From the IMG/VR virus record IMGVR_UViG_3300042402_007381, positions 1 through 43,336 of that record: DNA of 43,336 nucleotides; one strand, given 5' to 3'. Position 1 is the stretch's first letter. The number at the start of each line of letters is the position of its first letter. The notes under the pieces are model-generated. The model had not been told where the DNA came from, did not search any database, and saw only the letters and a program-made list of their open reading frames with translations. This DNA comes from a virus. Positions 289-23,378 of the stretch are shown piece by piece. Position numbers and translations under genes: made by a program.

Positions 289-631
289 CTATTGGGTTAC
301 AAGGTAGTCAACCCCGTGAAGTTCAAGCGGCTAGCTTGAGGTCTCCAATGAATGTATCATCATTTGCAGATACTTTTTTGCTTCTATTACGGCTTCGGCA
401 TTACCGTGTTGTCCAGTCATCTATTACACGCCAATCGATACTGTTGCGGGCCCATTAGGAAGTATACTGTCTTGGCTCCTGGTCTTACGACATATCAACA
501 CACAAGTTCTGCTCTCATCTGATGTTCGAGCTTCAGATATTATCACAGTACACTTTCTGGTGGACCCGGAGGAGTACTGCCCTCCTCGTCTTGCTCGTCT
601 TTCGACTTCCTTCACACAACAATATAATTAT
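289..631 (-). other. Late-transcribed stretch with only tiny reading frames
   Basis: This stretch lies between the terminator and a TATAAATA promoter on the minus strand (629-636), so it should be transcribed leftwards. It holds a 63-codon frame (615-424, GTG start, Arg/Ser-rich) that I cannot support as a protein, followed after tandem stops TAA-TAG by an in-frame 29-codon ORF listed separately. It may be a small RNA or a leader rather than coding DNA. No tRNA fold is visible. Confidence 0.35.
331..420 (-). CDS. Putative 29-residue small protein
   Basis: ATG at 420-418, TAG at 333-331. The predicted peptide has Asn-Ala-Glu-Ala-Val-Ile-Glu-Ala-Lys-Lys followed by a hydrophobic Met-Met-Ile, which would form an amphipathic helix. 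It is too short for ordinary gene calling. It lies between a late promoter and the shared terminator, and there is no strong ribosome-binding site in front. Function unknown; it may be chance. Confidence 0.3.
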   Translation of the reverse strand: MTGQHGNAEAVIEAKKYLQMMIHSLETSS

Positions 632-7517: not shown

Positions 7518-7858
7518 GTAAAAAAATCATAGCACAGGCACTTACGGTTTGCCGCTCACTCATTTCTTAGTTGTATTGTCTTGTTATGGGCAGCAATCAC
7601 CCTACTGCCGTTTGCTTTTAACCTAATAACTTATACGGACGATTTGCGGTCGCTACCCGATTTCGTTATTTCGAACTGTGTATCTGATGCTAGCTAGACA
7701 GAGCAGACATTGACAGTGCATTAGGCTGGTGAACACAGCCTTTTTCCAAAACAATACAACTAAGAAACCATATTGAAACACACTACCTGCTCTGCCGGCC
7801 GGTATCACTTACCGCGGAGTTGTGCGCCTTCCAGCTCCTTTCGTAATGCGTTTCAATA
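7518..7858 (-). ncRNA. Highly structured non-coding region, candidate phage RNA
   Basis: There is no convincing reading frame in this stretch of about 340 bases, but it has strong self-complementarity. A 17-base perfect inverted repeat (7563-7579 with 7751-7767) encloses 170 bases. A 12-base perfect inverted repeat (7768-7779 with 7850-7861) starts immediately beside it and runs into the CCA end of tRNA-Leu. Local hairpins include GGCAG/CTGCC (7590-7609), AGGCTG/CAGCCT (7723-7741) and CGGTA/TACCG (about 7799-7815). It is placed between tRNA genes, so it is probably co-transcribed with them on the minus strand. I cannot match it to a named RNA family; it is too short for GOLLD. Confidence 0.5.
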
Positions 7859-7944
7859 TGGTGCCGGTAACCAGATTCGAACTGGTACGCCTATCAAGCG
7901 GTGGATTTTAAATCCACTGGGTCTACCTATTCCCCCATACCGGC
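7859..7944 (-). tRNA. tRNA-Leu(TAA)
   Basis: Class II tRNA: acceptor GCCGGTA with TACCGGC, anticodon loop TTTAAAA (TAA), long variable arm (CGCTTGATAGGCG), T-loop TTCGAAT, discriminator A, CCA encoded. The CCA bases are also one strand of a 12-bp inverted repeat that continues into the downstream structured RNA. Confidence 0.93.
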
Positions 7945-7949
7945 ATTTT

Positions 7950-8037
7950 TGGTACTCCGAGTCGGATTCGAACCGACAGTGAACTTTCGTTGCCGGCTTA
8001 TGAGGCCGGTGCCTGCAACCTATACGGCGTTCGGAGT
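7950..8037 (-). tRNA. Class II tRNA with CAT anticodon (possible Ile2, lysidine type)
   Basis: All stems are perfect: acceptor ACTCCGA with TCGGAGT, D-stem GCC/GGC, anticodon stem CCGGC/GCCGG around CTCATAA, T-arm GTCGG-TTCGAAT-CCGAC, discriminator A, CCA encoded. The variable region is 15 bases long and folds as AAC-GAAA-GTT, so this is a class II tRNA. Class II shape belongs to Leu, Ser and Tyr, whereas CAT-anticodon tRNAs (Met and Ile2) are normally class I. A tilS-like gene lies 0.9 kb upstream, which favours lysidine modification of C34 and reading of AUA. Amino-acid identity is uncertain. Confidence 0.85.
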
Positions 8038-8053
8038 GTATTTTGTTTACTTT

Positions 8054-8839
8054 TTATTTCACAACAATTAAATTATATATGCCTTTTTTAATGTTGTCAA
8101 TATCTTTTTTATCAATTATCAATAATTTCTTGGGGAATTGTTTCCATTTTGCTTCATCTCTTTCAGTTTTGTATCCTTTAACTTCGACATAACTATCATA
8201 CTTTGGCAAATAGAAATCCGGGTAGTAAGTTCTTTCACCTTGCCAAACATATTTAAATCCTTCTGTATTTCGAAAACATTCAATAGAATTAGCTTCACAA
8301 TATTTGTAAAATTCTAACTCCCACGATCCCTGAAATTTTATTCCCTTATATTCTATTTGTTTGACTCTTCCACGATTAGAACTAGTATACGAGTCTGGGT
8401 TGTTATTGACAGCTCGACGCATAGCTTCGGCGTGTTTTTTTCTTATCGCCGGATCGGCCCATCTTGTTTCGTTTGCTTTTTTCGTTGCTTCACTAATTTT
8501 TAGTCGAGTTCTCTCACTTACTTCCGGTAGTGGTAGTCCCATCTTTTTTGCTTTAGCAAACTGATTGCTACCTTTCTTACCAAGCATACCAAAAGAAGAT
8601 TTTTTAACTTTTTTTTCAGGATTCGATTTACAATATAACTCGTGTTGAGTAATACTGTTCATTGAAGACCCGATTTTATCGCAAAATTTACATTTCAAAC
8701 TTCTTTCTTGTTTCTCTCTAGGTGAACTAAACAACTTACCAGTTCGACACTGTTTTGAATTATAGTGTATAGGTAAATTATTCGATGTCAAAACATTTTT
8801 ACAGATAGTACAAGAGCAAAGGCGTTTATTGGTTTTCAT
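8054..8839 (-). CDS. Free-standing homing endonuclease (PD-(D/E)XK type)
   Basis: About 261 residues. The N-terminus has two Cys/His zinc-finger-like motifs (CSCTIC...C and CKFCDK...H...C), a middle NUMOD3-like basic segment (SERTRLKISEATKKANETRW), and a C-terminal nuclease core YYPDFYLP...YVEVKGYK, with Asp and E-x-K as in phage homing enzymes of the F-CphI/PD-(D/E)XK kind. ATG at 8839 is preferred over the GTG at 8845 because a late promoter lies six bases before it. It lies between the class II tRNA and a truncated tRNA 5' half, suggesting that its insertion or spread disrupted that tRNA. Confidence 0.75.
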   Translation of the reverse strand: MKTNKRLCSCTICKNVLTSNNLPIHYNSKQCRTGKLFSSPREKQERSLKCKFCDKIGSSMNSITQHELYCKSNPEKKVKKSSFGMLGKKGSNQFAKAKKMGLPLPEVSERTRLKISEATKKANETRWADPAIRKKHAEAMRRAVNNNPDSYTSSNRGRVKQIEYKGIKFQGSWELEFYKYCEANSIECFRNTEGFKYVWQGERTYYPDFYLPKYDSYVEVKGYKTERDEAKWKQFPKKLLIIDKKDIDNIKKGIYNLIVVK

Positions 8840-8845
8840 AAACAC

Positions 8846-8912: not shown

Positions 8913-9578
8913 TTAAAAACTGCTGTCAACTAATTTATCTTCAAACCCCAAAGCCTGTTCTACCAATTGTCGTTCTACAACACGGCGTACTACACGATCA
9001 ATTCCAGGATTGACATGCCTTACATGTGGCATAAGCTGATGTCTAACATAATTGCGTTGATATCGTAAATCCTGATTGCTGAGATCTTCGGACCAGGGAA
9101 TACTGTGTCGCTGACACCATTGCTGTAGTTCTTGTTTTTTGGTCAATAAAAAAGGCCGCACTACATTGTTTCTACGCAATGGTACAGTTTTCGCAGTACC
9201 ATGCAACATACTCCAAACATAGGTTTCTACACAGTCATCTAAGTGATGTGCAGTAACTACAGGCATTTGAATTCCTTCTAAGAATTGGTAACGCTGAATT
9301 CGCCAATGTTCTTCTTGGCTTTGTCCCTGTGGTCTATCTTTACTATACCACCCTAAAATTAAAGGTAACTGTTTTGAATGACAGTATTTTGTTAGAAATT
9401 CACAGGCACGGTCACTGTTTTCTGTATTGTGATGGAAAAAAGCTACAGTAACATCATGGTTTCTATTGAGAAAATCCAGTGCTGCCATACTGTCTACTCC
9501 ACCACTGACAGCAATAGTTAGTTTCCTGGGCAATTTACAAGCTAATTTGATCATTTTTAGACAATTTGTGCAATGCAA
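8913..9578 (-). CDS. tilS: tRNA(Ile)-lysidine synthase, short phage form
   Basis: 221 residues. N-terminal PP-loop VSGGVDSM (residues 24-31), AHHLDDCVET (110-119), a MLHGT loop, then RPFLLTKKQELQQWC and PWSEDLSNQDLRYQRNYVRH, the diagnostic TilS block. The reaction ligates lysine to C34 of tRNA-Ile2(CAU), using ATP, so that it reads AUA. Bacterial TilS usually has extra C-terminal domains; this form stops after the catalytic core. It sits at the head of the tRNA cluster, close to the CAT-anticodon tRNA, its likely substrate. An alternative ATG lies at 9554. Confidence 0.88.
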   Translation of the reverse strand: MHCTNCLKMIKLACKLPRKLTIAVSGGVDSMAALDFLNRNHDVTVAFFHHNTENSDRACEFLTKYCHSKQLPLILGWYSKDRPQGQSQEEHWRIQRYQFLEGIQMPVVTAHHLDDCVETYVWSMLHGTAKTVPLRRNNVVRPFLLTKKQELQQWCQRHSIPWSEDLSNQDLRYQRNYVRHQLMPHVRHVNPGIDRVVRRVVERQLVEQALGFEDKLVDSSF

Positions 9579-9908: not shown

Positions 9909-10826
9909 ATGTCTCATTCTATATCATGGTCCGACGGGCTACTTGATTATAAACAGCACACTATAACTATAGCTGCTAATCTTATCGCTTATAATTGTCA
10001 TTTACAAGATAAAAGTTTATCACCAGACAATTTTGATGAGTCATTTCGACAAATTTTAGAAAAGTTTGTTTTTTCTAAAATAGAATTATTGTATAGTGGT
10101 GGGCTGGATAGCGAATTCGTATTGGTTAGTTTAAAAAATTTCGGTTATCCTGTTGTTGCTGTTACAATGAAACTTATGTGTAGAGGATATCCTATTAATA
10201 CACATGATTTGTATTACAGTGAAAAATTCTGTAGACAAAATAACATAGAGCAGAGATTTATAGAATTAGATATTGAAAAATTTTTTGAAAGTGGTCGTTA
10301 TCAAGATTATCTATTAGACTACTATATTCAGCAACCTCATGTGGCCACACATTTTTGGATGTTTGAGCAATGTGATAATTTTCCTATTTTGGCAGGCGAA
10401 TATAGTTGGCCCTGGGTCGATGAACCTATTTTAAGCCCACATAGATTAGAGTATAGCTGCTATGACAGATTTCTTGCTGATAATTCTATAAATGGTATCG
10501 GCAATCTTTTAAATTACAGTTACAACATAAACAGATCACTGATCAGTGCTCATATAGAATTATATAAACAAAATTTCATTTTAAACGACAGAACTTTGCC
10601 TATATTCAAAAAAAATCTCTATCAAAAACTCAGCAATTATACCTTTGAAGTCCGTATGCGAAATTCGGGCTGGGAAAATCTTCCTAAATCTGTTTTCAAC
10701 AAAAGTCAATATCGAGTTGAGTTAATTCGGCAACACAACAAAATCAGCAAAAGTGCTATATCATGGAATTTGGGTATAGCAAAACTATTAAATGGAAATA
10801 TCTACAGCAATGACCGATATAGTTAA
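9909..10826 (+). CDS. Asparagine-synthase-like PP-loop ATPase, copy A
   Basis: 305 residues. The PP-loop SGGLDS (residues 63-68) marks an N-type ATP pyrophosphatase fold as in the synthetase domain of asparagine synthase, but the N-terminal glutaminase domain is absent, so it would need another nitrogen donor or would simply adenylate its substrate. It is similar in length and layout to the protein at 11965-12882 (same 305 residues, same SGGxDSE followed by a Val-Thr strand and an acidic DIxxF block), so the two are paralogues. It is the first gene of a + strand operon with a methyltransferase and GNAT. Substrate unknown. Confidence 0.7.
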   Translation: MSHSISWSDGLLDYKQHTITIAANLIAYNCHLQDKSLSPDNFDESFRQILEKFVFSKIELLYSGGLDSEFVLVSLKNFGYPVVAVTMKLMCRGYPINTHDLYYSEKFCRQNNIEQRFIELDIEKFFESGRYQDYLLDYYIQQPHVATHFWMFEQCDNFPILAGEYSWPWVDEPILSPHRLEYSCYDRFLADNSINGIGNLLNYSYNINRSLISAHIELYKQNFILNDRTLPIFKKNLYQKLSNYTFEVRMRNSGWENLPKSVFNKSQYRVELIRQHNKISKSAISWNLGIAKLLNGNIYSNDRYS

Positions 10827-11367
10827 TTTCAATGCCGATAGTTTCAGCCATGGACAAATATTAAGTAAAATATGGTTATGCCAAACAATAGAACCTTATC
10901 TTCAAGATCGGCGTAGTCTCGCTATCTTAGGCTGTTGGTATAATGCTTTGGGATTTATTCTCAGAGCGCGTGGTAACATTCATAGAATAACAGGTTATGA
11001 CTTAGATGCCACTGCAATATCAACGGCTGATCGCATCTGTGACAGTTGGTGTTTGGACGGATCTATTAGTCATAATATAGCCGATGTTAATAAAGTCGAT
11101 CTCACCCCATTTGATGTAGTGATTAACACCAGTAGTGAACATATGAGCTCGGACTGGTTTGATTATGTCAAATCTGGAACATTAGTTTGTGTACAAAGCA
11201 GCGACATTGTTGATTCTGGGCCTCCTTGGCTGATCTCTAATCCTTCGCCCTCTTTTGAAGATTTTTTGGACAAATATCCTATGAGTTCCGAGTTGTTCAC
11301 CGGCCAAAAATTTTTTGATTATGTCACATTATCCTATAATAGATTTATGATATTAGGAATTAAGTAA
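10810..11367 (+). CDS. Class I SAM-dependent methyltransferase-like protein
   Basis: About 185 residues from the ATG at 10810 (an ATG at 10792 is possible; 10810 has GGAAAT upstream). AILGCWYNALGFIL is motif I, GYDLDATA is the ribose-binding acidic strand, and FDVVINTSSEHM is the motif IV region. It overlaps the PP-loop gene by 17 bases. A phage-type methyltransferase of unknown target; a place in the same modification route as its neighbours is inference. Confidence 0.65.
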   Translation: MTDIVNFNADSFSHGQILSKIWLCQTIEPYLQDRRSLAILGCWYNALGFILRARGNIHRITGYDLDATAISTADRICDSWCLDGSISHNIADVNKVDLTPFDVVINTSSEHMSSDWFDYVKSGTLVCVQSSDIVDSGPPWLISNPSPSFEDFLDKYPMSSELFTGQKFFDYVTLSYNRFMILGIK

Positions 11368-11376
11368 TTAAGTAAC

Positions 11377-11913
11377 ATGGTTTATGAAATTCATTCATCT
11401 GATGATTCACCTAGGGGAATCGAGCTGTTATATTCAGTGTTCTCTGCAATAGATCCCAACGAGCCATACTACAATAACTATTCACCGCAATGCCAAAATA
11501 TAATGGGCAATTTTTGGCAAATTCTCAATGCAGGTAGATATCTCAATGGATGCTACTATGTATTAGAGATTGACAACGAATATGTCTGTAGTGCCGGATG
11601 GAATGCCTATACTGAAGATACAGCAATTTTGTTAAGTAGAGCATTTGTTTTGCCAAAATATCGTGCAACATATCCATTGGCCAAACATATACTTCCTAGA
11701 ATTTTAGAAAATACTCAGAGATTTCCACATCAATGGATTTGCTGCAATGACTATAATCGAGCCATTTATGATTTCTTTGAGCGTGCATACAACAAGCGAA
11801 GCACCGCTCTTTACAGTAATTGGCCAAGTATCTATAAAAAATTTATACCAATCGGCCGCCGAAATATATACAATACTGAACAATTGGTAGCTGAGTATAA
11901 TGTTGACCACTGA
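11377..11913 (+). CDS. GNAT-family N-acyltransferase
   Basis: 178 residues. Beta strands YYVLEIDNEYVCSAGW and TAILLSRAFVLPKYR, then the helix with the CoA-contact region (RATYPLAKHILP), and a C-terminal ICCNDYNRAIYDFFERAY, the Asn/Tyr-containing end typical of GNAT. It lies between PP-loop copies A and B. It probably acylates an amine; the substrate is unknown. Confidence 0.65.
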   Translation: MVYEIHSSDDSPRGIELLYSVFSAIDPNEPYYNNYSPQCQNIMGNFWQILNAGRYLNGCYYVLEIDNEYVCSAGWNAYTEDTAILLSRAFVLPKYRATYPLAKHILPRILENTQRFPHQWICCNDYNRAIYDFFERAYNKRSTALYSNWPSIYKKFIPIGRRNIYNTEQLVAEYNVDH

Positions 11914-11964
11914 TTTCCTTAGAGATAGTCTCACTATCTATGCGTTATTCAACCAAAAATTTCT

Positions 11965-12882
11965 ATGAATTTCACAGACAAAAATCATCTATCATACAGT
12001 ATTGGAGATAGAAAGTACGGATTTAGGGAATCAGTTATTGATAAATTTACTGTCGAAGTAGGCAAAATAGATCCTCAACATTATGCTAAAACTAATTTTG
12101 AAACTGAATTACAGAGAACAGCTGATTTAGTTTATAGAGAGTTTGGCAATGATTTTATTTTATTACTAAGCGGCGGTACAGACAGTGAAATTGTAGCACA
12201 CAATTTCCTTAGTATCGGTATAAAGCCGTACTGTGTCACAGCAAGATTCGTAGGAGATTATAATCTCACCGATGTCGAAGAAGCTAAGAGAATAACCAAA
12301 GAGCTAGATCTCAAACACGATATAATTGATTTTGATATCCGTGAGTTTTATTATTCTGGTCAAGCCAGCGAGTTTGGCAGTGGAATTCAATGTACACAGA
12401 TTACTTACAATATGTGTTATTTTCTTTTGAATCGATTACAGAGCGCGGGTGTAATGGGCGGAGAAGCATTGCTGACCAGAAATGTCACAAAAAATGATAG
12501 CTATTGGTATTGGACATTTCGTGAAAACGAAGATGCTAGTGCTATGAGATTTGCAATTAAATACAATCTACCATTGGTCAATGAATGGTTTAGTTATACT
12601 CCTGAACTATTACTGTGTTATCTTGAAGATACAGAAATCGTCAAATTAGTCACTGAGAAATATAATTACAAACTGACCAGTGTCAGCAGTAAAAATCGAA
12701 TATTGAAAAGACTTTGTCCTTATGTAACTGAGAAACGCAAAACTCATGGTTTTGAAAATTTACTAGCATTTAATCATCAAAGCTATCGTGACACGGCCAG
12801 TCTGGTATTACCAAGACTTGAACCAAGTCTTGATGGTATTAAGTATGAAGAAGTGATTCAACAACTTAGAGGTATAGAATAA
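11965..12882 (+). CDS. Asparagine-synthase-like PP-loop ATPase, copy B
   Basis: 305 residues with SGGTDS at residues 69-74, followed by conserved strands (CVTARF) and IIDFDIREFYYSG. No glutaminase domain. It is a paralogue of copy A (9909). Its stop overlaps the ATG of the next GNAT gene (TAATG), so they are translationally coupled. Together with copy A and its GNAT this looks like a duplicated ATPase + GNAT module. Confidence 0.7.
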   Translation: MNFTDKNHLSYSIGDRKYGFRESVIDKFTVEVGKIDPQHYAKTNFETELQRTADLVYREFGNDFILLLSGGTDSEIVAHNFLSIGIKPYCVTARFVGDYNLTDVEEAKRITKELDLKHDIIDFDIREFYYSGQASEFGSGIQCTQITYNMCYFLLNRLQSAGVMGGEALLTRNVTKNDSYWYWTFRENEDASAMRFAIKYNLPLVNEWFSYTPELLLCYLEDTEIVKLVTEKYNYKLTSVSSKNRILKRLCPYVTEKRKTHGFENLLAFNHQSYRDTASLVLPRLEPSLDGIKYEEVIQQLRGIE

Positions 12883-13481
12883 TGCAGATTAGAAAACTTG
12901 ATTATCAGGATAGAAACATCTGTCAAGGTTTATTCATGAACCAAAAATACATGGGCGGACATGATATATCTGGATTTTATCGAAGTCCTACAGCAAATCA
13001 TGATCAAAATACTCAGTATTATCACAATTTCTGTAATGCTTATCTAGCAGATTTGAAGAACTATGTTGCATTTGGTGCATTCGAAAATAATGAAATCGTC
13101 GGCATAATTAGTGCTTACAAAAGCATTGATGAACCAAGTTGGTATGGCACTCAAATTCGCAGCAACGACGGTAGAACTGTGGTTCGGGCACTGCTGGATC
13201 AAATGATTGACCACATGGAATCTGAAGGTCGTTTGAAATTTTATACACTATGGAATGTGAAAAATTCACGACTTCTTCGCAGATTTGCTTTCAATAAGCG
13301 CACCAATGAACGTTATGATTATTTTGATGAATATCTTGTGCCAGAAAAACACAAGTGCTTGTACACTCAGCATTGGCATGTACTATTCAACCGTGTATTG
13401 TTACCAGTGGAAACTGTAGTTCGATGCACCTTTCTAAAACAAAAATATCGTGAACAGTTGCCGATTGGCGGAAATATCTAG
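12882..13481 (+). CDS. GNAT-like acyltransferase, coupled to PP-loop copy B
   Basis: 199 residues. The core YVAFGAFENNEIVGIISAYKS (about residues 61-80) and the later RTVVRALLDQMIDHME helix and FYTLWNVKNSRLLRRFAF end follow the GNAT order. It is less typical than the 11377 GNAT but of similar size. It ends two bases from the convergent SDR gene. Substrate unknown. Confidence 0.6.
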   Translation: MQIRKLDYQDRNICQGLFMNQKYMGGHDISGFYRSPTANHDQNTQYYHNFCNAYLADLKNYVAFGAFENNEIVGIISAYKSIDEPSWYGTQIRSNDGRTVVRALLDQMIDHMESEGRLKFYTLWNVKNSRLLRRFAFNKRTNERYDYFDEYLVPEKHKCLYTQHWHVLFNRVLLPVETVVRCTFLKQKYREQLPIGGNI

Positions 13482-13482
13482 A

Positions 13483-14136
13483 TTATTTAGAAAGAAAGTG
13501 ATTGTTCATAGTGATTCTAGATATGTTGATATATCTCGGTTGTGCTAGAATCCATTCAATGGTTTTAGCGATATCTATGGGTTTTATCGGCGTAAAATCA
13601 TTGAAGTTATAGTTAGTATATCTCGACTCACTTACCGGACGTTTCGTAAACTCATTGAAATCTGTCGGCATTACAATGTCTGGTTCTAGCGTTGTTACCC
13701 TGATATCTCTAGTTCTACTTCTACTGAGACAGATACAGAAATTACTGATTGCATTTTTACTGTTATTATAATTTATGCGGTCTTGAGTGATGTTTTTATG
13801 GCCGTTGGACATCAGGGCTGCAATCGAGGATATGTTGATTATAACGCTGCCGGCATCCAATGAATTATAGAATCTTGAAATCAAATCTGCAGCGGCAACA
13901 TAATTCAGTTCAAGTGTTTCAGTAACAGAGTTGGATATCTTTCCAGCGCAAATAACAACAATGTCGGGTTTATAATCTTTTATTAGTAAATCTCGAAAAT
14001 CAGACTTACAGATATCACCGAGAACATCTGCGTTGGTTCTTGCCAAGGTAGTCACAGAATATTTTTCTGAAAAATATTCTGCACATACTTTACCTATGCC
14101 TTTACTTGCCCCGACTATCAACATTTTTTTATTCAT
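13483..14136 (-). CDS. Short-chain dehydrogenase/reductase
   Basis: 217 residues of the classical SDR type: GASKGIG (residues 9-15) for cofactor, a CAG motif in place of NAG, ISSIA with the catalytic Ser, and YNNSK (Tyr-x3-Lys) after an insertion. An oxidoreductase for a hydroxyl/keto group; substrate unknown. It is transcribed against its neighbours from a late promoter that ends five bases before the ATG and touches, back to back, the promoter of the 14163 gene. Confidence 0.8.
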   Translation of the reverse strand: MNKKMLIVGASKGIGKVCAEYFSEKYSVTTLARTNADVLGDICKSDFRDLLIKDYKPDIVVICAGKISNSVTETLELNYVAAADLISRFYNSLDAGSVIINISSIAALMSNGHKNITQDRINYNNSKNAISNFCICLSRSRTRDIRVTTLEPDIVMPTDFNEFTKRPVSESRYTNYNFNDFTPIKPIDIAKTIEWILAQPRYINISRITMNNHFLSK

Positions 14137-14141
14137 GTTAG

Positions 14142-14149
14142 TATTTATA
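14142..14149 (-). promoter_or_regulatory. T4-type late promoter TATAAATA, 5 bases before ATG
   Basis: TATAAATA, then CTAAC and ATG at 14136. It shares base 14149 with the divergent + strand site. Confidence 0.6.
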
Positions 14150-14156
14150 ATAAATA
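14149..14156 (+). promoter_or_regulatory. T4-type late promoter AATAAATA
   Basis: AATAAATA, then TTCTTC and ATG at 14163 (six bases). It forms a near-palindromic divergent pair with the minus-strand site. Confidence 0.55.
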
Positions 14157-14162
14157 TTCTTC

Positions 14163-14699
14163 ATGAACATTTTGTTGGATAATATTAGATTTGAAAAATA
14201 CACTTGGCTGAGGATCCCAGACACAACAAATCGACTACTGTTTAGAAATTGCTTTCAACATCGTTTTTCTAAAATAGACAGTATTAGTGTTGTTCTTAGC
14301 AGCTTTGAACAACAAATAGAAGAAAACAATAAATATTTGTCCAATCAAGAGGAGTTTACATTTTTTTGTTATCTTCGTGGTTTAGTGACTGATGCAGAAT
14401 TATTGTTTGGCAAAGTTAGTCTTTGGCGCATTTCTGGGCATAGTCAAGTAAAATATCATAGAGATAACTATGCATATCATAGTTATATAGACAGATACGT
14501 CTATAATATAAACATGCTAAATTCACAGACTGATTTTCTCTCAGAAAAAAATAAGATTGAATCTGAACCAGGCTCTATAATAAAGTTCGATCATAAAAAG
14601 TTTCATTCTGTAAAAAATAATAGTGATGTTGATGTTTATTTTTTAACATTCGATTTAGTCAAACAAAACTTTATTTCATTATTATCGGAGCAATTATAA
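14163..14699 (+). CDS. Putative Fe(II)/2-oxoglutarate oxygenase (Asp/Asn hydroxylase-like) 1
   Basis: 178 residues. H99-R-D101 gives the facial-triad HxD, followed by a YNINML strand and a distal H148 in KKFHSVKNNSD. The SVKN beta-turn after the last His is typical of aspartyl/asparaginyl beta-hydroxylase-like proteins; a clear 2OG-binding Arg is not obvious. It lies directly before the desaturase gene, whose ATG follows its stop without a gap. Confidence 0.6.
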   Translation: MNILLDNIRFEKYTWLRIPDTTNRLLFRNCFQHRFSKIDSISVVLSSFEQQIEENNKYLSNQEEFTFFCYLRGLVTDAELLFGKVSLWRISGHSQVKYHRDNYAYHSYIDRYVYNINMLNSQTDFLSEKNKIESEPGSIIKFDHKKFHSVKNNSDVDVYFLTFDLVKQNFISLLSEQL

Positions 14700-15503
14700 A
14701 TGTTCACAAACATTTCTAAATACAGTTATTTCAGTTTTATACCTAGTATGTTGTTTGGCGCACTGACAATACTATTATTCATCAATGAAACTTTACCACT
14801 GTATTATCTACTTTTTACGTTGATTGGATGGATTATGATCAGTGGCATGGGGGTGGCAGTCGGATATCATCGAGTGTTTAGCCATAATACTCATACCAAT
14901 CTAAAATCCTGGCTAGAAAATATACTATTATTTTGTGGGGCACTCAGTGGGCAAGGTTCTAGCATCACTTGGACTGCAATACATCGTGGATATCATCATA
15001 GACACAGTGATACTAATCGTGATCTTCATAGTCCAATTCACGGTATCTATCATGCGTTCTTTGGTTGGACTACGAAAATTACTGAGAACAATCCTGGTAT
15101 TAGTCTTAGATATGCCGGTAATCTATTGAGAAAATCAAATCATCAGTGGTTCCATCGTAATCATTTGAAGATACAGTATTTGACACCGTTGATTATTGCT
15201 GTATTTGATTGGAAACTTGCACTAGCACTGATCTGTTTGCCGACTGCACTGAGTTTGATTCAGGATAATACAGTGAACATCGTCGGACACAGAAAGAGTT
15301 TGATTGGTTATCGTAATTTTGACACACGAGATAACTCACAAAATAATTGCATTCTGGGTTATCTTGCATGGGGTCAAGGTTGGCATAATAATCATCATCA
15401 CGACCCGGGTTCTTTTGATTTTGGCACTGATATCAGTAACAAATTCTGGGAGTACGATCCCTGCAGAATATTTCTTCCATTGTTAAATATAGGCAGTAAA
15501 TGA
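14700..15503 (+). CDS. Membrane fatty-acid desaturase (acyl-CoA/lipid delta-9 type) 1
   Basis: 267 residues with the three histidine boxes of di-iron desaturases: HRVFSH, HRGYHHRH and GWHNNHHHDP, and four hydrophobic segments. It inserts a double bond in acyl chains in the cytoplasmic membrane with O2 and an electron donor. The last box and the FDTRDNS stretch are shared with the second desaturase at 36806. Lipid desaturases are known from cyanophages; here the gene is in the oxygenase island and coupled (ATGA) to an unknown gene downstream. Confidence 0.85.
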   Translation: MFTNISKYSYFSFIPSMLFGALTILLFINETLPLYYLLFTLIGWIMISGMGVAVGYHRVFSHNTHTNLKSWLENILLFCGALSGQGSSITWTAIHRGYHHRHSDTNRDLHSPIHGIYHAFFGWTTKITENNPGISLRYAGNLLRKSNHQWFHRNHLKIQYLTPLIIAVFDWKLALALICLPTALSLIQDNTVNIVGHRKSLIGYRNFDTRDNSQNNCILGYLAWGQGWHNNHHHDPGSFDFGTDISNKFWEYDPCRIFLPLLNIGSK

Positions 15504-16078
15504 TGTTAGTATCTGCAATAAATTTTGTAACACAAGACCACCGGGATCTTGAAATCTTAATCGAGCCTGACGATATTGACCAATATGCTGTGAGATATCT
15601 ATGGATTCAGCATCGCACACATAACACAGAATTTGTTGAGAATTATTTCTCCGGAGGAAACAACCGCGGGCTTAATGTCAGAACACGCACACAACATCTT
15701 GGCGATACATGGCGTAATCATAATAAAGTATTTGATGAAAGTGCAGAAAACGGAAATTTAGTTTGGCGAGTCAAGGCCTACAATCGCCTAAGTCAAAGCA
15801 TTGATTACATTGAAATATGGCGTAGCAGAGAGATTTTATCAGACATTTTTGATCGTACCGCAACATTGTCGGACGGCAGCAAATGGACAGACAATGAAAA
15901 AACAGATCTTGGGCGTGGAATATATGACAGTGGCTTTGATGTAAGGCATATGCGGCCCTTCCGTGGTATATCTAAAAAACTTGCACTTGATTATTACTGG
16001 CATTTTGTTGAACGGCATAAAGCCAAAGATAATTGCATAATTAACACACGATATAATCCCGAATTAAACCCTGTATGA
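15500..16078 (+). CDS. Unknown protein, 192 residues
   Basis: It starts within the desaturase stop (ATGATG) and ends overlapping the next gene by 4 bases (ATGA), so it is clearly translated as part of the operon. No motif is recognised; it is rich in Arg, Asp and Asn, with no signal peptide or membrane helix. A segment with WRVKAYNRL and IEIWRSREIL may be a beta-rich core. It could be a partner of the desaturase or the oxygenase that follows. Confidence 0.55.
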   Translation: MMLVSAINFVTQDHRDLEILIEPDDIDQYAVRYLWIQHRTHNTEFVENYFSGGNNRGLNVRTRTQHLGDTWRNHNKVFDESAENGNLVWRVKAYNRLSQSIDYIEIWRSREILSDIFDRTATLSDGSKWTDNEKTDLGRGIYDSGFDVRHMRPFRGISKKLALDYYWHFVERHKAKDNCIINTRYNPELNPV

Positions 16079-16596
16079 ATCATAAATTTCACTGTAAGCG
16101 TATAGGAAATTTACATCCCGACACTTTGTTCAAACTTTCCCACAATATTGTAAATTTAAATTATGAAGTCTGTAGAGATTTTCCTGCTAGTATTATTCAA
16201 GTCAGTGACAAATTAGACAGTGAGTTATTAGATCTTGTTAAAATGGATTTATCATCACTGATAAAAATAAAATACGATGCGGTTACAAATATTGCTCGAA
16301 TGAGTCCAAAGAGTTACTTGGCCGAGCACAATGATCTATCGACATATTCCAGTAATGCCAATCGTCTCAGAGAAATTATTAAATTGCAAATTCCTATTAT
16401 AACAAATGATAAGGTTTTTATGATGTGGAAATATTCACAATCACAAACACAAGTTGAGCATTTAGAAGTCGGTGGAGTTTATGTAATCAATAATCTTATC
16501 AGACATTCAGTCGTAAATGGCGGCACAGAATATCGATACAATCTCACTGTGAGATATGCCATTGATGCCATAGTTGATCAATCTATTATAGACTGA
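16075..16596 (+). CDS. Putative aspartyl/asparaginyl beta-hydroxylase-like protein 2
   Basis: 173 residues. H85-N-D87 (AEHNDLS), LQIPIITND, then VEHLEVGGVYVINN, H144 (RHSVVNGG) and R154: the order and spacing of the Asp/Asn hydroxylase cupin core. These enzymes hydroxylate Asp or Asn side chains with Fe(II) and 2-oxoglutarate. Its 3' end overlaps the convergent radical SAM gene by 11 bases. Confidence 0.7.
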   Translation: MNHKFHCKRIGNLHPDTLFKLSHNIVNLNYEVCRDFPASIIQVSDKLDSELLDLVKMDLSSLIKIKYDAVTNIARMSPKSYLAEHNDLSTYSSNANRLREIIKLQIPIITNDKVFMMWKYSQSQTQVEHLEVGGVYVINNLIRHSVVNGGTEYRYNLTVRYAIDAIVDQSIID

Positions 16597-18046
16597 TAAG
16601 TTTTTGTTTATAACTGTCTATAAATTTTTGTTGATCGGCGGTTATTTTAGACCAATCAAGGGTTGAGGCCAAAGTATTATTAAGCTCATATTTTGTCAAT
16701 CCGGTATTCATTAGACTAAGAGCTTTCCATGAAGTAACTTTCATTTTGTTGCGACCATGTCTATTTAAACTCTTAGACAGCAAGTCGGCAACTTGACGCG
16801 ACATAATTTTTGTGCGCCATTCTCGTGTTGTTTCGTCATAGGTAAAACCGTATTTCTCGGGATTTCGGTCAAGGTCACTATTCATTAAACGGAACCCCGG
16901 GGTAATCAACAATGATTTGAATACCCACGAATGAAAATTATTTTCCATAAGGAAGTCCAATGTTGAGTAATAATCCTGTATTTTTTCTGGCGGTAAACCC
17001 ACAATGAAACTGGTATGAAAAGTCACATCATTTTTCCAAAGATCCAATAGCTCTAATAAAAATTCTCGACCTTGTTTTCCGCTCCAGCCTTTGCCCATTA
17101 ATCTACTGGCCTCTGGATGAAAACTTTCAATACCAAAAAAACCACTCATCAGACCTGAGTCACGAAGTAATTCTGCATGTCCTAGATTTCTATGCAGCAG
17201 ATCTGCTCTCAGGTATGCAGTAAAATTAAGTTTAAAGTTTAATTTTTGTGTAATATCATACCAACCCTTGACTTTATAATCACTGTCATTGAATGTGTCA
17301 TCTAGTATATAATAGTTTGTTGTGTTAAATGTCTGATAGTTGTATTCTAATTCTTCCTGGATATATTCAAACTGTCTAAGATAATCAAATTTAGTTTTAC
17401 CTATATGCGGATATTGACAAAAAGCACATTTAAAAATACACCCACGACTGATTTCAATGGGTAGTGTTTCTCCAGGAATAATGCAGTCTTGTTCTAAAAA
17501 TTTATGTCGTAGATGTTCAATTTTAAAATTCAAGTTCTGTGCAGCATTAACAAAAGGTCTATTACCTCTATATACTGAATGGAAAATGCTGCGCGACTTT
17601 TTCCATGACTGCAGAATTTCTAAAAACGAATCTTCTGCATCACCGGTCAGACTCATATCAAATAGTTGATAATCTTCTGTTTCAATAAAATCTGCTGAAT
17701 GACCACCTAATACTATTTTTAGTTTGGGATATTGATCTCTAATTTCTTTAATTGCCTGTCTAATGTTGTCGGGTACAGTGATAGCTTTGTACCTTGACAT
17801 GGGAGTCAAAGTATTTTTTGGATTTAATTCACTCCAGAAAGTAGAACTAACACCTATACATAAGGTGTCTGATGTCACAAACTTTTTAGTAATCTTGACA
17901 AGATCTTCTGCGGTCATATGATGTACAAAATCAATTACTTGACAACTAAAATCATTTTGCCGTAGCCACCATGCCAGTTGATACGGCCCGATTGCTCGAT
18001 AATTAATTTTTAAATCAAACACTCCAGTCCAAAATATCACATTCAT
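16586..18046 (-). CDS. B12-binding-type radical SAM enzyme 1
   Basis: 486 residues. An N-terminal Rossmann-like domain (residues 1-150, IVLGGHSADF and the TGDAEDSF turn as in cobalamin radical SAM proteins; the DxHxxG cobalamin motif is not evident), then RGCIFKCAFC with C203, C207, C210 for the [4Fe-4S]-SAM cluster, and a SPASM-less C-terminus. Members do methyl transfers or rearrangements. It overlaps by 4 bases the oxygenase-like gene 18043-18783 upstream, so the two are co-translated. Confidence 0.8.
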   Translation of the reverse strand: MNVIFWTGVFDLKINYRAIGPYQLAWWLRQNDFSCQVIDFVHHMTAEDLVKITKKFVTSDTLCIGVSSTFWSELNPKNTLTPMSRYKAITVPDNIRQAIKEIRDQYPKLKIVLGGHSADFIETEDYQLFDMSLTGDAEDSFLEILQSWKKSRSIFHSVYRGNRPFVNAAQNLNFKIEHLRHKFLEQDCIIPGETLPIEISRGCIFKCAFCQYPHIGKTKFDYLRQFEYIQEELEYNYQTFNTTNYYILDDTFNDSDYKVKGWYDITQKLNFKLNFTAYLRADLLHRNLGHAELLRDSGLMSGFFGIESFHPEASRLMGKGWSGKQGREFLLELLDLWKNDVTFHTSFIVGLPPEKIQDYYSTLDFLMENNFHSWVFKSLLITPGFRLMNSDLDRNPEKYGFTYDETTREWRTKIMSRQVADLLSKSLNRHGRNKMKVTSWKALSLMNTGLTKYELNNTLASTLDWSKITADQQKFIDSYKQKLISL

Positions 18047-18783
18047 ATTAATTGCCGCCGAATTTCTGGTAAAAACTTGCCATCGATTCTGACACTGAAA
18101 CTGAAATGATCTACCGATTCTGTGCCGTGATAATCCATTTCATTAAACCAAACGAATTTTCTGTCTTGATCTGCATAGTGACGAATACCTGTATCTTCAT
18201 CAAGTACAAACATCTTTTTAGTGTTGGGTTTAGTTGTAAACCAAACGAAGTCGTCGTGTGGTCTTTCATTTCTCACTGCAGCATCAAAATGCGGAAGAGT
18301 AGGATTTCGTGCCTCGGTCATAAACAGCACTACTCTGCCAATTTCTGAGAACGGCAGAGATTTTATAAATTCTACTAATGTTGTAAAATGTCTACTGTTA
18401 TCAGTCCATTCGCAATCAGCACTTACACTTTTGTTGAATATACCAGTTCGTTCACGACGAATGTTATTTCTCAGATACACTAACCAAAAGGGATGTGGGA
18501 CTGGTCCCCAGGCTGTGAGAAACTTGATTTTTTCGTCAGTGGTTTGTAGATTGACAAACTTTTCTCGACTATATGAGTCAAGATTATCCGCAATATTTCT
18601 CATGTATGGAGTTATTTCACGGTCAGCGTAGTCCGGGTGAATGCCGCTGCTGACAAATCTTTTATTCCATTGACTCTGAGAAATTCCCAAACAAACATCA
18701 GTATGAAGTTGCTGCCAATTTGGTTCAGTTATAAACTCATCTAAATACTTGAATGGTGTGCGAGTATTATCTAGTCCTTGCAT
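18043..18783 (-). CDS. Putative Fe(II)/2OG oxygenase 3
   Basis: 246 residues, the longest of the group. H165-F-D167 (LPHFDAA), a Lys-rich loop, then DEDTGIRHYAD, H219 (MDYHGTES) and R232 (FSVRIDGKF). The order HxD...H...R matches a cupin-type dioxygenase. The N-terminal 140 residues are specific to this gene. A late promoter ends five bases before its ATG. Confidence 0.65.
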   Translation of the reverse strand: MQGLDNTRTPFKYLDEFITEPNWQQLHTDVCLGISQSQWNKRFVSSGIHPDYADREITPYMRNIADNLDSYSREKFVNLQTTDEKIKFLTAWGPVPHPFWLVYLRNNIRRERTGIFNKSVSADCEWTDNSRHFTTLVEFIKSLPFSEIGRVVLFMTEARNPTLPHFDAAVRNERPHDDFVWFTTKPNTKKMFVLDEDTGIRHYADQDRKFVWFNEMDYHGTESVDHFSFSVRIDGKFLPEIRRQLI

Positions 18784-18788
18784 AATAT

Positions 18789-18796
18789 TATTTATT
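18789..18796 (-). promoter_or_regulatory. T4-type late promoter AATAAATA, 5 bases before ATG
   Basis: AATAAATA, then ATATT and ATG at 18783. No Shine-Dalgarno. Confidence 0.55.
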
Positions 18797-18810
18797 TGAG
18801 CGAATCGACA

Positions 18811-18818
18811 AATAAATA
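18811..18818 (+). promoter_or_regulatory. T4-type late promoter AATAAATA, 5 bases before ATG
   Basis: AATAAATA, then TATAA and ATG at 18824. Divergent from the 18783 promoter, 14 bases apart. Confidence 0.55.
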
Positions 18819-18823
18819 TATAA

Positions 18824-19438
18824 ATGAAGATTATTCTAGACCGTTCTCCGTACTATTGTTTAATCGAAGATAAAAACACAGAGCAGATTATACAGATAGC
18901 TCAAGAAATTCTTGCCGAGCAACGATTCGAATTTATTCGTGGCACGGAGGACTTTCAACATTCTAGATTATTGCACCATGACTGTCAAAAATTGATAAGT
19001 CTAAGCAATTTGAGATTTTTATCAGACAAGTGTTCGCGACCGTATGCCAGTATATTCTCTACTAAAGCCGGATATTACTATCGCGCACACAAAGATGGCC
19101 AAACCATTAGATATGCAATGAATTACATTATAGATGCCGGAGATGGTGTTTGCGAAACTCATTGGTATTCAGATGAAGTTGCTACGCATTATGAAATAAA
19201 TTCGCTTGGTGGTACTAGTAGAGAATTAGAACAGTTTGATTCGCATAATCATACTGCAGTTGAATCAGCAGTGTTTCAAAATAATTCTGTGATGTTGATC
19301 AATACCGACATTTACCATGATTTTGATAATCGTAATAATACCCAAGCTCGACATGTCCTTACTTTGAGATACGGTTTACCTAGTGATTTTTATTTTGAAC
19401 ATGCTTTATTGAAACTGAAAAAACATGCCTGTTTATGA
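18824..19438 (+). CDS. Putative Fe(II)/2OG oxygenase 4
   Basis: 204 residues. H89-K-D91 (RAHKDGQ), a YAMNYIID strand, INTDIYH with H165 and RHVLTLRY with R176/R182. First gene of the + strand operon with a second oxygenase, a PP-loop ATPase and a TctC protein. It overlaps the next gene by 14 bases. Confidence 0.65.
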   Translation: MKIILDRSPYYCLIEDKNTEQIIQIAQEILAEQRFEFIRGTEDFQHSRLLHHDCQKLISLSNLRFLSDKCSRPYASIFSTKAGYYYRAHKDGQTIRYAMNYIIDAGDGVCETHWYSDEVATHYEINSLGGTSRELEQFDSHNHTAVESAVFQNNSVMLINTDIYHDFDNRNNTQARHVLTLRYGLPSDFYFEHALLKLKKHACL

Positions 19439-19970
19439 AACCAACATTGTTAGATCGTTGACTGAACCAGAAATTCAAATACTGTCTGATGAAATATCGA
19501 ATTTACCCATGAAGTTTTGGGTCAAGCATTATCCAATACCCAATTTGTTGTTAAGGTTACGAGACGGCGAGAGTGTCCACCTCAATTGGCCGTCGGAAAA
19601 AACAAATGTGCTTATTACAGAAAGACGAAACGAATTACCCAATGTTTGGAATTTTATACTTGAGTGTTTGGGCGATGATGCAGTTGGCAGGGCATACATT
19701 CATCGACTCAAACCCAATGACTCAATCAATAAGCATCATGATGACATTCATGTGAAATCCATGAATATTTTAAATCGGTATCACATTTATCTTGATATTC
19801 CGGACAATGTTGAGTTGTTTTTTGATGATGAAAATGTTGAAAATCCTTTGCAATTTAAAAATACACTAGTAGACTTTGCGCTATCACGATTGCACTATTA
19901 TAAGAATTGGAGTAACCAAAACTGGTATTTCATTGTGTTTGACAAAATTGAGAAGAATCATAATGAGTAA
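19425..19970 (+). CDS. Putative Asp/Asn hydroxylase-like protein 5
   Basis: 181 residues. KHHDDIH gives the HxD site (H104/D106 or H105/D107); a YHIYLDIP strand, a DDEN-rich turn, H157 and a final NWYFIVFD strand follow. The order is as in the other small oxygenases, but the Arg for 2OG is not clear, so it may be a divergent or inactive member. It overlaps the PP-loop gene by 8 bases. Confidence 0.55.
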   Translation: MPVYETNIVRSLTEPEIQILSDEISNLPMKFWVKHYPIPNLLLRLRDGESVHLNWPSEKTNVLITERRNELPNVWNFILECLGDDAVGRAYIHRLKPNDSINKHHDDIHVKSMNILNRYHIYLDIPDNVELFFDDENVENPLQFKNTLVDFALSRLHYYKNWSNQNWYFIVFDKIEKNHNE

Positions 19971-21192
19971 TCTTGGACATTACATAGTAAATAACAAGAT
20001 ATATCTAAACAAACTAGAAGCAATACTTGCTGCAAATTCAAGTAGATCAGAAATAAAATGGCATTATCATGATGATTTACTTGATCGAGTAAAATGGCAA
20101 GTAGAGCCAGACATTGGGTTGTCAAGACTCTATGAACTCAGAGCCAAACAAATCAGAGACAAGCATGACTATGTGGTACTCATGCTCAGTGGCGGTGCTG
20201 ACAGCACAAACATGCTGAGAAGTTTCACAGATAATAATATCAAAATTGATGAAGTTGTTGCAAGTGCACCACTTAGTGGCATAAAAAATCTAAAAATAAA
20301 CACAGAGGATAGAAGTCCCGAGAATACAGTTCTTGAAACTCTATTAGCGCAGATGCCATTGGTTAGAAAACTAAGTCGGACCAATCCAGAGATAAAAATT
20401 TCAATCAATGACTATTTCAACGATATTCTCAGACTAAAAAGTGACAGTTGGATATATGAAAGCAGTAGTCATTGGATACATTTCAGCGGTACAACCAGAC
20501 ATAGTCTAGATAATCTTAGACATCTCAGAAATCTTGCCGAACAAGGTAAAAAATTGGCAATTGTTTATGGTATAGACAAACCTGTTGTATGCCGTGCCAA
20601 AGACGGTAATTTGTATAATGTGATTGCAGATTCTGTTGTCAACATTGTCACTAGTCATTTTACTGACATCATGTCTAATGTAGAAAGTGTGTTGTTTTAC
20701 TATACACCGGACCTGCCGGAACTCATGGTAAAACAATGTCATGAGGTCTGTAGATGGATTTATAAACCGGAAAATAAACCACTGAAAGAAACATTGTTAT
20801 GGGATAGGGCCAAGTCCGAAGACTTCAATAAATCTGGACTGCGAGCCAGTAGATGGCAACGTGCGATAATACCCTGCATATACCCAACTCTGGAAAAGTT
20901 TCTGACAATTAGCTGGCAAGCAGAAAAACATGATCCTGGTTTTCGCGGCGGTCGTCAAATTGATGCGTGGATGTATAAATTGCATGGCAATAGTCGAGTA
21001 GTAGAAATGGTCGAAAGTGACCTTGGTCTATTATCTAATAGCATTGATCGTAGGTACTTTATGAATCAAAATCCATCAGATGGATTTATGAGATTTTCAA
21101 AATTTTGGAAAATCGGACATGAGCTAGATTTTTTGCCGAATAACTTGCTTTCAATAAATAACTCACAATATTCAACGGAGCACATATTGTGA
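19963..21192 (+). CDS. Asparagine-synthase-like PP-loop ATPase, copy C
   Basis: 409 residues from the ATG at 19963 (the frame is open further upstream, but that part lies inside the previous gene). SGGADS at residues 76-81; KHDYVVLMLSGG before it and GIDKP further on are shared with copy D (23969-25162). No glutaminase domain. It overlaps the TctC gene by 4 bases (GTGA). Copies C and D both sit next to a TctC gene and an oxygenase gene, so they are one conserved module. Substrate unknown. Confidence 0.75.
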   Translation: MSNLGHYIVNNKIYLNKLEAILAANSSRSEIKWHYHDDLLDRVKWQVEPDIGLSRLYELRAKQIRDKHDYVVLMLSGGADSTNMLRSFTDNNIKIDEVVASAPLSGIKNLKINTEDRSPENTVLETLLAQMPLVRKLSRTNPEIKISINDYFNDILRLKSDSWIYESSSHWIHFSGTTRHSLDNLRHLRNLAEQGKKLAIVYGIDKPVVCRAKDGNLYNVIADSVVNIVTSHFTDIMSNVESVLFYYTPDLPELMVKQCHEVCRWIYKPENKPLKETLLWDRAKSEDFNKSGLRASRWQRAIIPCIYPTLEKFLTISWQAEKHDPGFRGGRQIDAWMYKLHGNSRVVEMVESDLGLLSNSIDRRYFMNQNPSDGFMRFSKFWKIGHELDFLPNNLLSINNSQYSTEHIL

Positions 21193-22073
21193 AACTTTTT
21201 TCTTTAATTTTTTTGCTAGTCTTTTCAAAAAGTATTTTTGCTGCTCAGACCATACAAGTTCACTGGCCATTTTCTGTTGCAAGCACCCAGGCCAATATGA
21301 TCAGAGCTTTGCTTTCTGAGGCAAATGCTCAACAAACTGATTACAAATTTGTGTTTGCACACAAACCCGGTGCCGGTGGTTCCATTGCAGCAAACAGTTC
21401 TTTGTCTGGTGGCTCGAGTATTTTGATCAGTACTAGCAGTTTTTATATTCGGCCATTGCTGTATTCAGACAGTCATGATGTCAATAAATTCAATCTTGTT
21501 GAAGTAGTTTGTAACGATCAGCCATTGGCTGTGTTTAGTACAAAGTATTCTACAATTGATGAACTACGGTCAAGATCAGTCACCGTGGGTGTTATCCCGG
21601 GATCTATTACTAATCTAGTAACACGAAGATTTGTGTTGAATAATCTTCAGATATCTGAGGTATTCTATAAAGGAACCCCAGAAGCTACCGCCGATGTTCT
21701 TGGTGCACACATAGATCTTAGTATTGACTTCCTTGGTGAGAGAAGAATTACAGAAAATTCTCGCATTAAGATCATTGGTATTACTGGCAGTAAATCATTT
21801 GGGAATTATCGAACTTTGGCCTCGCAGAATATCACTGGTACTGAGTCAATAACCAATAGTTATTTCATTTTTCTAGACAAGAATGCCGACTCGGCGCTTT
21901 TACAAAAACTTCGTGAAATATTTTCAAGATCTAAAACTACTACAAAAGTTCAAGAATTTTGTCAAAAAGATTATGGCAGTCAGAAAAGTTATTCAGATTC
22001 GGAACTAACGATCTTAAATGAAACTAATAAGACATTTTGGAAAATTGCAACAAGCGGTGTGATAGTAAAATAA
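21189..22073 (+). CDS. TctC/Bug-family periplasmic binding protein 1
   Basis: 294 residues, GTG start inside the stop of copy C. Signal peptide MKLFSLIFLLVFSKSIFA, then the family's KPGAGGSIAAN motif, and strands and helices of the two-lobed Bug fold. Such proteins bind small carboxylates or related compounds in the periplasm for TctAB transporters. There is no TctA or TctB gene in the window, so the protein may use a host transporter or act as a scavenger or sensor. Confidence 0.8.
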   Translation: MKLFSLIFLLVFSKSIFAAQTIQVHWPFSVASTQANMIRALLSEANAQQTDYKFVFAHKPGAGGSIAANSSLSGGSSILISTSSFYIRPLLYSDSHDVNKFNLVEVVCNDQPLAVFSTKYSTIDELRSRSVTVGVIPGSITNLVTRRFVLNNLQISEVFYKGTPEATADVLGAHIDLSIDFLGERRITENSRIKIIGITGSKSFGNYRTLASQNITGTESITNSYFIFLDKNADSALLQKLREIFSRSKTTTKVQEFCQKDYGSQKSYSDSELTILNETNKTFWKIATSGVIVK

Positions 22074-22082
22074 AACAAAAAA

Positions 22083-22090
22083 GATAAATA
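22083..22090 (+). promoter_or_regulatory. T4-type late promoter GATAAATA
   Basis: GATAAATA 17 bases before the ATG at 22108, with AGGAGA at 22097-22102 as Shine-Dalgarno. It is the clearest case of a conventional leader. Confidence 0.55.
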
Positions 22091-22107
22091 CGTCATAGGA
22101 GACAAAT

Positions 22108-23067
22108 ATGAAAAAGATATCAATCACTTGGGTTATCGCACACGAGCCGGCATATCTATTTTATAGAGTAGCAGAAGACTTCAAAAATATCGTGAATGAC
22201 TACTGCAAAGATTATGAAATCGTCGCGAATATCTACACTGATCTAGAGTATAACTCAAAATTTAATCCCGATACTAAAGTAGATCGACACAATCTAAGTG
22301 ATTTTTTAAAGAGCAATGAAATTCAAATTGCTCAAATGCAGACTTCAAGTCTGGCCAGAAAATCAAATCCCGAAATGAATATACTTGATCTTCCGTATTT
22401 GTTTACTGATCATAAACATGCTGAACGAGTGTTAGATGGGGAAGTGGGCGACAAATTACTCAATTCTTTTACAGACCATAGCAGTCTGCGTGGATTAGCA
22501 TTTACATATAGTGGTGGATTTAGACTTATGCCGTTTGCTTTAGATATTACTGAACTAAGTCAAGCACATGGTTCGAATATCAGAAGTGGAAGAAGTCCTA
22601 TTGCTCAGACAAACATTTCTGCCTTGGGGTTTACTCCGATACCCACAGAAATTGATGAAGTCACTGATGCCGTAGTGAAACAACATGTCATTGGAGCTGA
22701 GCATGTTGCTCAAAGATTGTTTCCAGACAATTGCGAATCTTGGATCAAAACAATCATTGATACAGAACACAGCTTATTTTTAACAAGCATCGTGGTGAAT
22801 AAGCAATGGTTTTCTATTTTACCGCAGGAAGTTCAGACTGCATTTTTACAAGCTGCCAAAAAAGCAGCAGCAAATGAAAGAAAACTTAGCATCAAAGACG
22901 GTCTGGAAAGTCTAGAAAAAATGAAATCTGCTGGAGTAAAGATTATTAGATTGACCAGTGAGGAGAAACAAAAGCTAAAATCAAAGACTCAAAAAGTCTA
23001 TGTTCAGTACGATTCAATTATAGATAAAGATCTATTACAGAAAATCAGTTCGGAGGCATCGAAATGA
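22108..23067 (+). CDS. TRAP DctP-type substrate-binding protein, no signal peptide
   Basis: 319 residues. LDLPYLFTDHKHAERVLDGE is the family's central block, and the C-terminal helices (LPQEVQTAFLQAAKKAA) also fit DctP. DctP proteins are periplasmic receptors for carboxylates, but here the sequence starts at once with the first strand (MKKISITWVIAHEPAYLFYR) and no signal peptide is visible, so it should stay in the cytoplasm. That suggests a binding or enzymatic role in the pathway of the island. Coupled (ATGA) to the 103-residue gene. Confidence 0.7.
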   Translation: MKKISITWVIAHEPAYLFYRVAEDFKNIVNDYCKDYEIVANIYTDLEYNSKFNPDTKVDRHNLSDFLKSNEIQIAQMQTSSLARKSNPEMNILDLPYLFTDHKHAERVLDGEVGDKLLNSFTDHSSLRGLAFTYSGGFRLMPFALDITELSQAHGSNIRSGRSPIAQTNISALGFTPIPTEIDEVTDAVVKQHVIGAEHVAQRLFPDNCESWIKTIIDTEHSLFLTSIVVNKQWFSILPQEVQTAFLQAAKKAAANERKLSIKDGLESLEKMKSAGVKIIRLTSEEKQKLKSKTQKVYVQYDSIIDKDLLQKISSEASK

Positions 23068-23375: not shown

Positions 23376-23378
23376 TGA

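Follow-up and report, generated by a model that had tools for sequence, protein, structure and literature searches.

The stretch of viral DNA analysed here (the window) is a 43,336-base IMG/VR virus record carrying eight tRNA genes and a permuted tmRNA gene (positions 323-621, minus strand, 89 bits). One run of genes on the minus strand comprises, in order, tilS, an endonuclease gene, a tRNA gene with a CAU anticodon, tRNA-Leu(UAA) and tRNAs for Gln, Cys and Arg. The tRNA-Leu(UAA) gene (7859-7944) adjoins an inverted repeat (ACCATATTGAAAC ... GTTTCAATATGGT, 7766-7862) that surrounds a GC-rich stretch. Elsewhere in the window, tRNA-Thr(UGU) (32276-32349, minus strand) is detected by Rfam and missed by ARAGORN. 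The block at 9909-25989 encodes, as judged by eye only, several PP-loop proteins with an SGGxDS motif, radical-SAM-like and periplasmic-binding-like proteins, and short proteins resembling iron/2-oxoglutarate oxygenases; it reads like a small biosynthetic cluster. A search for relatives of the large protein encoded at 16586-18046 found none.

A CAU tRNA with a long variable arm

The CAU tRNA lies at 7950-8037 on the minus strand and is 88 nt long with its encoded CCA. ARAGORN calls a tRNA(CAT) over the whole interval, and Rfam model RF00005 matches 7953-8037 with 46.2 bits (cut-off 29, E 7e-7). All four stems are fully paired: acceptor (ACTCCGA/TCGGAGT, 7/7), D (GCC/GGC, 3/3), anticodon (CCGGC/GCCGG, 5/5, with loop CTCATAA) and T (GTCGG/CCGAC, 5/5, with loop TTCGAAT). 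The discriminator is A73. The anticodon occupies 8000-8002, placing C34, the expected lysidine site, at 8002. The variable region, CAACGAAAGTTCACT (7978-7992), is 15 nt long and contains a 3-bp hairpin, AAC-GAAA-GTT (7982-7991). The original prediction of a class II CAU tRNA with a complete cloverleaf, CCA and this arm is thus borne out by ARAGORN and Rfam, and by the covariation described below.

A further feature, absent from the original prediction, is found in the core. The U8-A14 contact is near-universal in tRNAs; here it is reversed, with A8 at 8030 and U14 at 8024. The minimum-energy fold is the cloverleaf with a few extra D-loop pairs (-32 kcal/mol, z -2.9).

Tertiary and acceptor positions used below are A15-U48, U3-A70, C4-G69 and C5-G68, all present in the window copy.

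The neighboring TilS and endonuclease

The tilS gene (8913-9578, minus strand) encodes a 221-residue tRNA(Ile)-lysidine synthetase comprising the N-terminal catalytic domain only (PF01171; TIGR02432, E 2.7e-36, 125 bits against a curated cut-off of 93.6). The motifs SGGVDS, HHLDD and RNxxR are present, and are conserved in 16 phage proteins. An AlphaFold model (pLDDT 88) displays the TilS catalytic fold, with Aquifex TilS (PDB entry 2e21, E 1.9e-14) as its best match, and aligns with that enzyme to about residue 229 of 317. The C-terminal domain or domains of type I and II enzymes, which in the longer type I TilS read the acceptor stem, are lacking. This short form is usual among the phage relatives, nearly all of those measured being 196-221 residues long. 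It is shared with the TilS of MIJ3/PA5oct, an early report of a phage TilS (PMC6892783); the PA5oct protein has 203 residues and is about 39% identical, and, unlike in the window, no CAU tRNA was found within 6 kb of its gene.

A single gene separates tilS from the CAU tRNA downstream of it on the same strand. It encodes a free-standing, probably homing, endonuclease of 263 residues (8054-8845, minus strand; PHROG 15137 endonuclease, E 2e-23), for which no Pfam match was found.

A lineage of long-armed tRNAs

A D-arm pattern in which the anticodon was not specified was searched against viral contigs and the window. It returned 23 distinct intact tRNAs, every one of them class II with a CAU anticodon. 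Either a misaligned anticodon loop or class I homologues would have counted against the original prediction; the CAU register is constant and the loop identical in every intact relative, and all 23 share the class II shape.

A model alignment was then assembled from 23 distinct viral and bacterial sequences selected as class II CAU tRNAs with A8/U14, and 99.5% of its pairing cells are paired. Among the 23 distinct relatives, each of the three variable-arm pairs varies in both partners and remains paired, so the long arm is real. A8/U14, one of the features used for selection, is found in 23/23 members; C5-G68 is kept in 20/23 and C4-G69 in 17/23. The 15-48 pair also covaries (A-U in 14 sequences, G-C in 9). 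Variants with A15 break the extended D stem of the energy fold, which is therefore disfavored, and a tertiary 15-48 pair is the better reading. The window tRNA is a member of a widespread lineage, and not an oddity of a single phage.

Several viral members have features of their own. In one (L191:850-1180), positions 37 and 38 are separated by a group I intron, whose RF00028 match (44 bits) does not reach the gathering score of that family. In two prophage-type records (L163 and L203) the tRNA is close to one end of the stretch. In L228, taken from a 337-kb record, the class II tRNA is accompanied, as in the window, by a permuted tmRNA.

Other long-armed tRNAs were met in the course of the searches. 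Many further viral class II CAU tRNAs (e.g., L087, L107, L122, L134 and L184) are initiator-like, with a 1-72 mismatch and a GGG or similar anticodon stem; an initiator tRNA of class II shape would be unusual in its own right. A sister phage of the window (L190:4172-4254) has a class II tRNA-Thr(UGU) with a 12-nt paired variable arm, unlike the class I tRNA-Thr(UGU) of the window itself. The uncultured huge phage LR745206.1 (L567:290-555) encodes three tRNA-Lys (UUU, UUU and CUU), all long-armed and 84-87 nt in length. In Caulobacter phage CcrColossus (L038:2980-3066, L038:1659-1745), the annotated 87-nt tRNA-Met is a class II CAU tRNA bearing U73, and the gene annotated as tRNA-Cys has a long arm too; CcrPW (L039) has the same pair.

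Pairing of tilS with tRNA genes in related phages

Related TilS proteins are encoded at 24 viral loci. Since intron-split tRNA genes are missed by ARAGORN and by the tRNA family model, a dedicated script was used to find them. A CAU tRNA directly follows tilS at three of the 24 loci (L009, L029 and L031), in each case a class I tRNA-Ile2 with C4-G69 and C5-G68; the genes of L009 and L029 are split, that of L031 is not. The nearest relative of the window is L009: its TilS is 65-68% identical, its tRNA set overlaps that of the window, and the two share the same tRNA-Pro(UGG) sequence. Its tRNA-Ile2, interrupted in the anticodon loop by a group I intron (RF00028, 54 bits), begins about 135 nt after tilS and lies just before tRNA-Leu(UAA). 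The slot between tilS and tRNA-Leu(UAA) thus holds a class I tRNA-Ile2 in the sister phage and the class II tRNA in the window.

No tRNA was found at most of the other TilS loci among the 24, and phage TilS may therefore also serve without a phage tRNA. Conversely, tilS was not found in 19 other viral contigs bearing this tRNA lineage (many of them fragments), nor in the lineage-bearing contig L037. An obligatory association of class II CAU tRNA with TilS was rejected, TilS being absent from five class II CAU contigs and these 19 further lineage contigs. The lineage tRNA and phage TilS are not obligate partners.

Bacterial chromosomes and plasmids

Scanning 84,980 bacterial and archaeal species genomes with a sequence pattern yielded 116 stretches. 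Intact class II tRNAs are present in 114 of these, as 34 distinct sequences; the other two are a tRNA with an unrelated 5' acceptor strand and a chance match. Among the 80 stretches listed with their source, all belong to Paraburkholderia, Burkholderia, Cupriavidus, Ralstonia, Trinickia or an unnamed Burkholderiaceae. The tRNA is encoded in the chromosomes of Paraburkholderia, Ralstonia, Cupriavidus and Trinickia. Plasmids carry it as well; nearly all of these are from Cupriavidus, and most are predicted to be conjugative. A covariance model detects the lineage in 46 of 249 Burkholderiaceae genomes, almost always once per genome and with scores of 103-110 bits, and in 1 of 150 genomes sampled across the order. 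The pattern GAGCN{5,8}YTCATA proved too loose to be of use.

One Ralstonia genome (G014) yielded 46 tRNA genes, of which all except three long ones were read. Those with a CAU anticodon comprise two initiators, an elongator Met and the class II tRNA; no other Ile2 candidate and no UAU tRNA was found among the genes read. A pattern for class I tRNA-Ile2 that also catches intron-split genes was run over twelve genomes. Class I tRNA-Ile2 is absent from eight of the nine class II genomes checked, the exception being Cupriavidus necator SHC 2-3, which has both forms. Of three relatives without the class II tRNA, two carry class I tRNA-Ile2 and the third has one that differs in sequence. The difference in class I presence (1/9 against 3/3) gives a one-sided Fisher value of 0.018, for genomes not drawn at random. 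The class II tRNA is the only AUA-reading tRNA found in the Ralstonia genome and in seven more bacterial genomes, and full-length TilS (474-521 residues) is present in all four class II genomes tested.

Bacteria need a tRNA that reads AUA, a rare codon for isoleucine. As class I tRNA-Ile2 is absent, the class II tRNA is by exclusion the tRNA-Ile2 of these genomes. From sequence comparison, the long-armed tRNA appears to have replaced the ordinary tRNA-Ile2 in the chromosomes of many Burkholderiaceae.

Identity of the window tRNA

The window gene is very probably a phage-borne, AUA-reading tRNA-Ile2 of the long-armed Burkholderiaceae lineage, modified with lysidine and charged with isoleucine. 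The class II shape would be explained by its descent, the tRNA belonging to an Ile2 lineage, found in Burkholderiaceae and in their plasmids and phages, in which the long arm and the A8/U14 core were acquired. Support comes from the neighboring tilS, the synteny with class I tRNA-Ile2, heavy AUA use by the phage, and the near mutual exclusion with class I tRNA-Ile2 in Burkholderiaceae genomes. Features of a lysidine-type tRNA-Ile2 are also present in the molecule itself, namely CAU in a CTCATAA loop with A37 and A38, and the acceptor pairs C4-G69 and C5-G68, which are the dominant determinants for E. coli TilS (PMC12514573). The customary class I variable loop of 4-5 nt, which is not known to be required in tRNA-Ile2, is replaced by the 15-nt paired arm. 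The minor IleRS determinants U12-A23 and C29-G41 are both missing from the window tRNA.

Compared with bacterial class I tRNA-Ile2(CAU), such as that of E. coli, the window tRNA has in common the CTCATAA loop, A73, the two acceptor pairs, the association with TilS and AUA as the codon served, and differs by its class II arm, a 3-bp D stem with a 12-nt loop, and A8/U14. With the class II tRNAs for Leu, Ser and Tyr it shares a long paired variable arm and the 3-bp D stem; it differs from them by its CAU anticodon, U14 and an Ile2-type acceptor stem, and by taking the place of tRNA-Ile2 in genomes.

The foremost alternative is an elongator tRNA-Met in which C34 stays unmodified and MetRS recognizes the CAU anticodon, its dominant determinant. 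ARAGORN labels the gene tRNA-Met and A73 would fit, but a tilS gene lies nearby, and the elongator Met of the bacterial family has G4 and A5 in its acceptor stem in place of the C4 and C5 of the window tRNA. Host genomes bearing the class II tRNA, moreover, already have a separate elongator Met (GGCGAATTAGCTCAG...), tRNA-Ile2 being the one that is missing. C4-G69 and C5-G68 are lacking in both the elongator Met and the initiator of this family. We consider a methionine identity improbable. An initiator tRNA-fMet was rejected as well, since the window tRNA has A1-U72 and an anticodon stem of CCGGC/GCCGG where tRNA-fMet has no Watson-Crick 1-72 pair and a GGG/CCC stem.

The original prediction had left two identities side by side: a lysidine-type tRNA-Ile, which would be a new architecture for reading AUA, and a recoding tRNA charged by LeuRS or TyrRS. 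The first is supported and the second is not. If LeuRS (or SerRS or TyrRS) recognized the tRNA by its long arm, so that Leu (or Ser or Tyr) entered proteins at AUG or AUA, the arm would be accounted for, and A73 and the A15-U48 of the window copy are compatible with LeuRS (for A15-U48, PMC9976931). Against this, position 14 is U in 23/23 members of the alignment selected for A8/U14, nine of which have G15-C48 in place of A15-U48, and there is no G73 for SerRS. A14 is a LeuRS determinant. Identity as tRNA-Leu, with a U8-A14 core and a Leu anticodon, is contradicted by the same A8/U14 and by CAU. In chromosomes, the tRNA also stands in for tRNA-Ile2, and mischarging there would change the residue at every AUA; recoding is accordingly very unlikely. 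Equally remote is a leftover or integration site, carried because phages recombine at tRNA genes and not as an active tRNA: the end-proximal copies in the prophage-type records, placed as an attachment site would be, and the group I intron of the L191 copy are in its favor, but the window copy sits complete with CCA inside a phage tRNA cluster, and the stems are kept by covariation across the lineage.

A proposed phage-borne route to AUA decoding

The data establish the gene, the class II shape and lineage of its product, the replacement of class I tRNA-Ile2 by this lineage in genomes, and the pairing of tilS with tRNA-Ile2 in related phages; we infer lysidine formation, charging with isoleucine, the action of phage TilS on this tRNA, and the host. 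The tRNA would be transcribed with a CAU anticodon; C34 would be converted to lysidine by the short phage TilS, perhaps together with the host enzyme; IleRS would charge the lysidine-bearing tRNA with isoleucine, and AUA would be read. The phage would carry tRNA and modifying enzyme as a cassette, as it uses AUA often and its probable host type rarely. AUA makes up 282 of 12,009 codons in the phage (23.5 per 1000), against 0.6 per 1000 in B. cenocepacia (PMC12514573). The AUA load of the phage is thus about 40 times that of B. cenocepacia, and the phage would gain from bringing both components. B. cenocepacia TilS is also slow (0.004, against 5.0 for E. coli, per uM per min) and prefers G3-C70 (PMC12514573). 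With U3-A70 in its place, the window tRNA might be served poorly by a host enzyme of this type.

The B. cenocepacia tRNA-Ile2 (PMC12514573) shares G3-C70, C4-G69, C5-G68 and G51-C63 with the Burkholderiaceae class II consensus, and differs from the window tRNA at 3-70. It is read here as class I, its 11-nt D loop fitting the class I Cupriavidus form (L383). The B. cenocepacia tRNA-Ile2 'A79G' (PMC10128029) was considered as a published class II case and set aside, the 79-nt class I Cupriavidus gene with its 11-nt D loop being the better fit.

A broader proposal is tentative and on the whole doubtful. It holds that, in one branch of Burkholderiaceae, the essential tRNA-Ile2 gave way to a class II tRNA whose 8-14 contact is reversed and which plasmids and phages probably helped to spread. 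It adds that the phage TilS, with only the catalytic domain, relies on features of the tRNA body, in the D loop, the long arm or the core, and not on the acceptor stem, to separate this tRNA from tRNA-Met.

Implications

Class II tRNAs are those for Ser, Leu and Tyr, and also Sec (review of non-canonical tRNAs, PMC7609411). No class II tRNA-Ile was found in the open-access literature searched, and prior notice elsewhere is possible. For tRNA-Ile2 of Burkholderia and Acidovorax, the tRNAscan-SE 2.0 paper mentions group I introns, and it notes that Met and Ile2 labels are sometimes swapped; no long arm is described in these passages (PMC8450103).

An isoleucine tRNA of class II shape, chromosomal in well-known genera, would, if true, mean that the amino acid of a tRNA is not fixed by its class, and that a conserved tRNA can have a reversed U8-A14 contact in its core. 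A class II tRNA-Ile2 would explain the long genes called as 'tRNA-Met' in Burkholderiaceae and in the plasmids and phages of these bacteria, and would provide a natural substrate for studying how TilS, IleRS and MetRS sort tRNAs that share the CAU anticodon.
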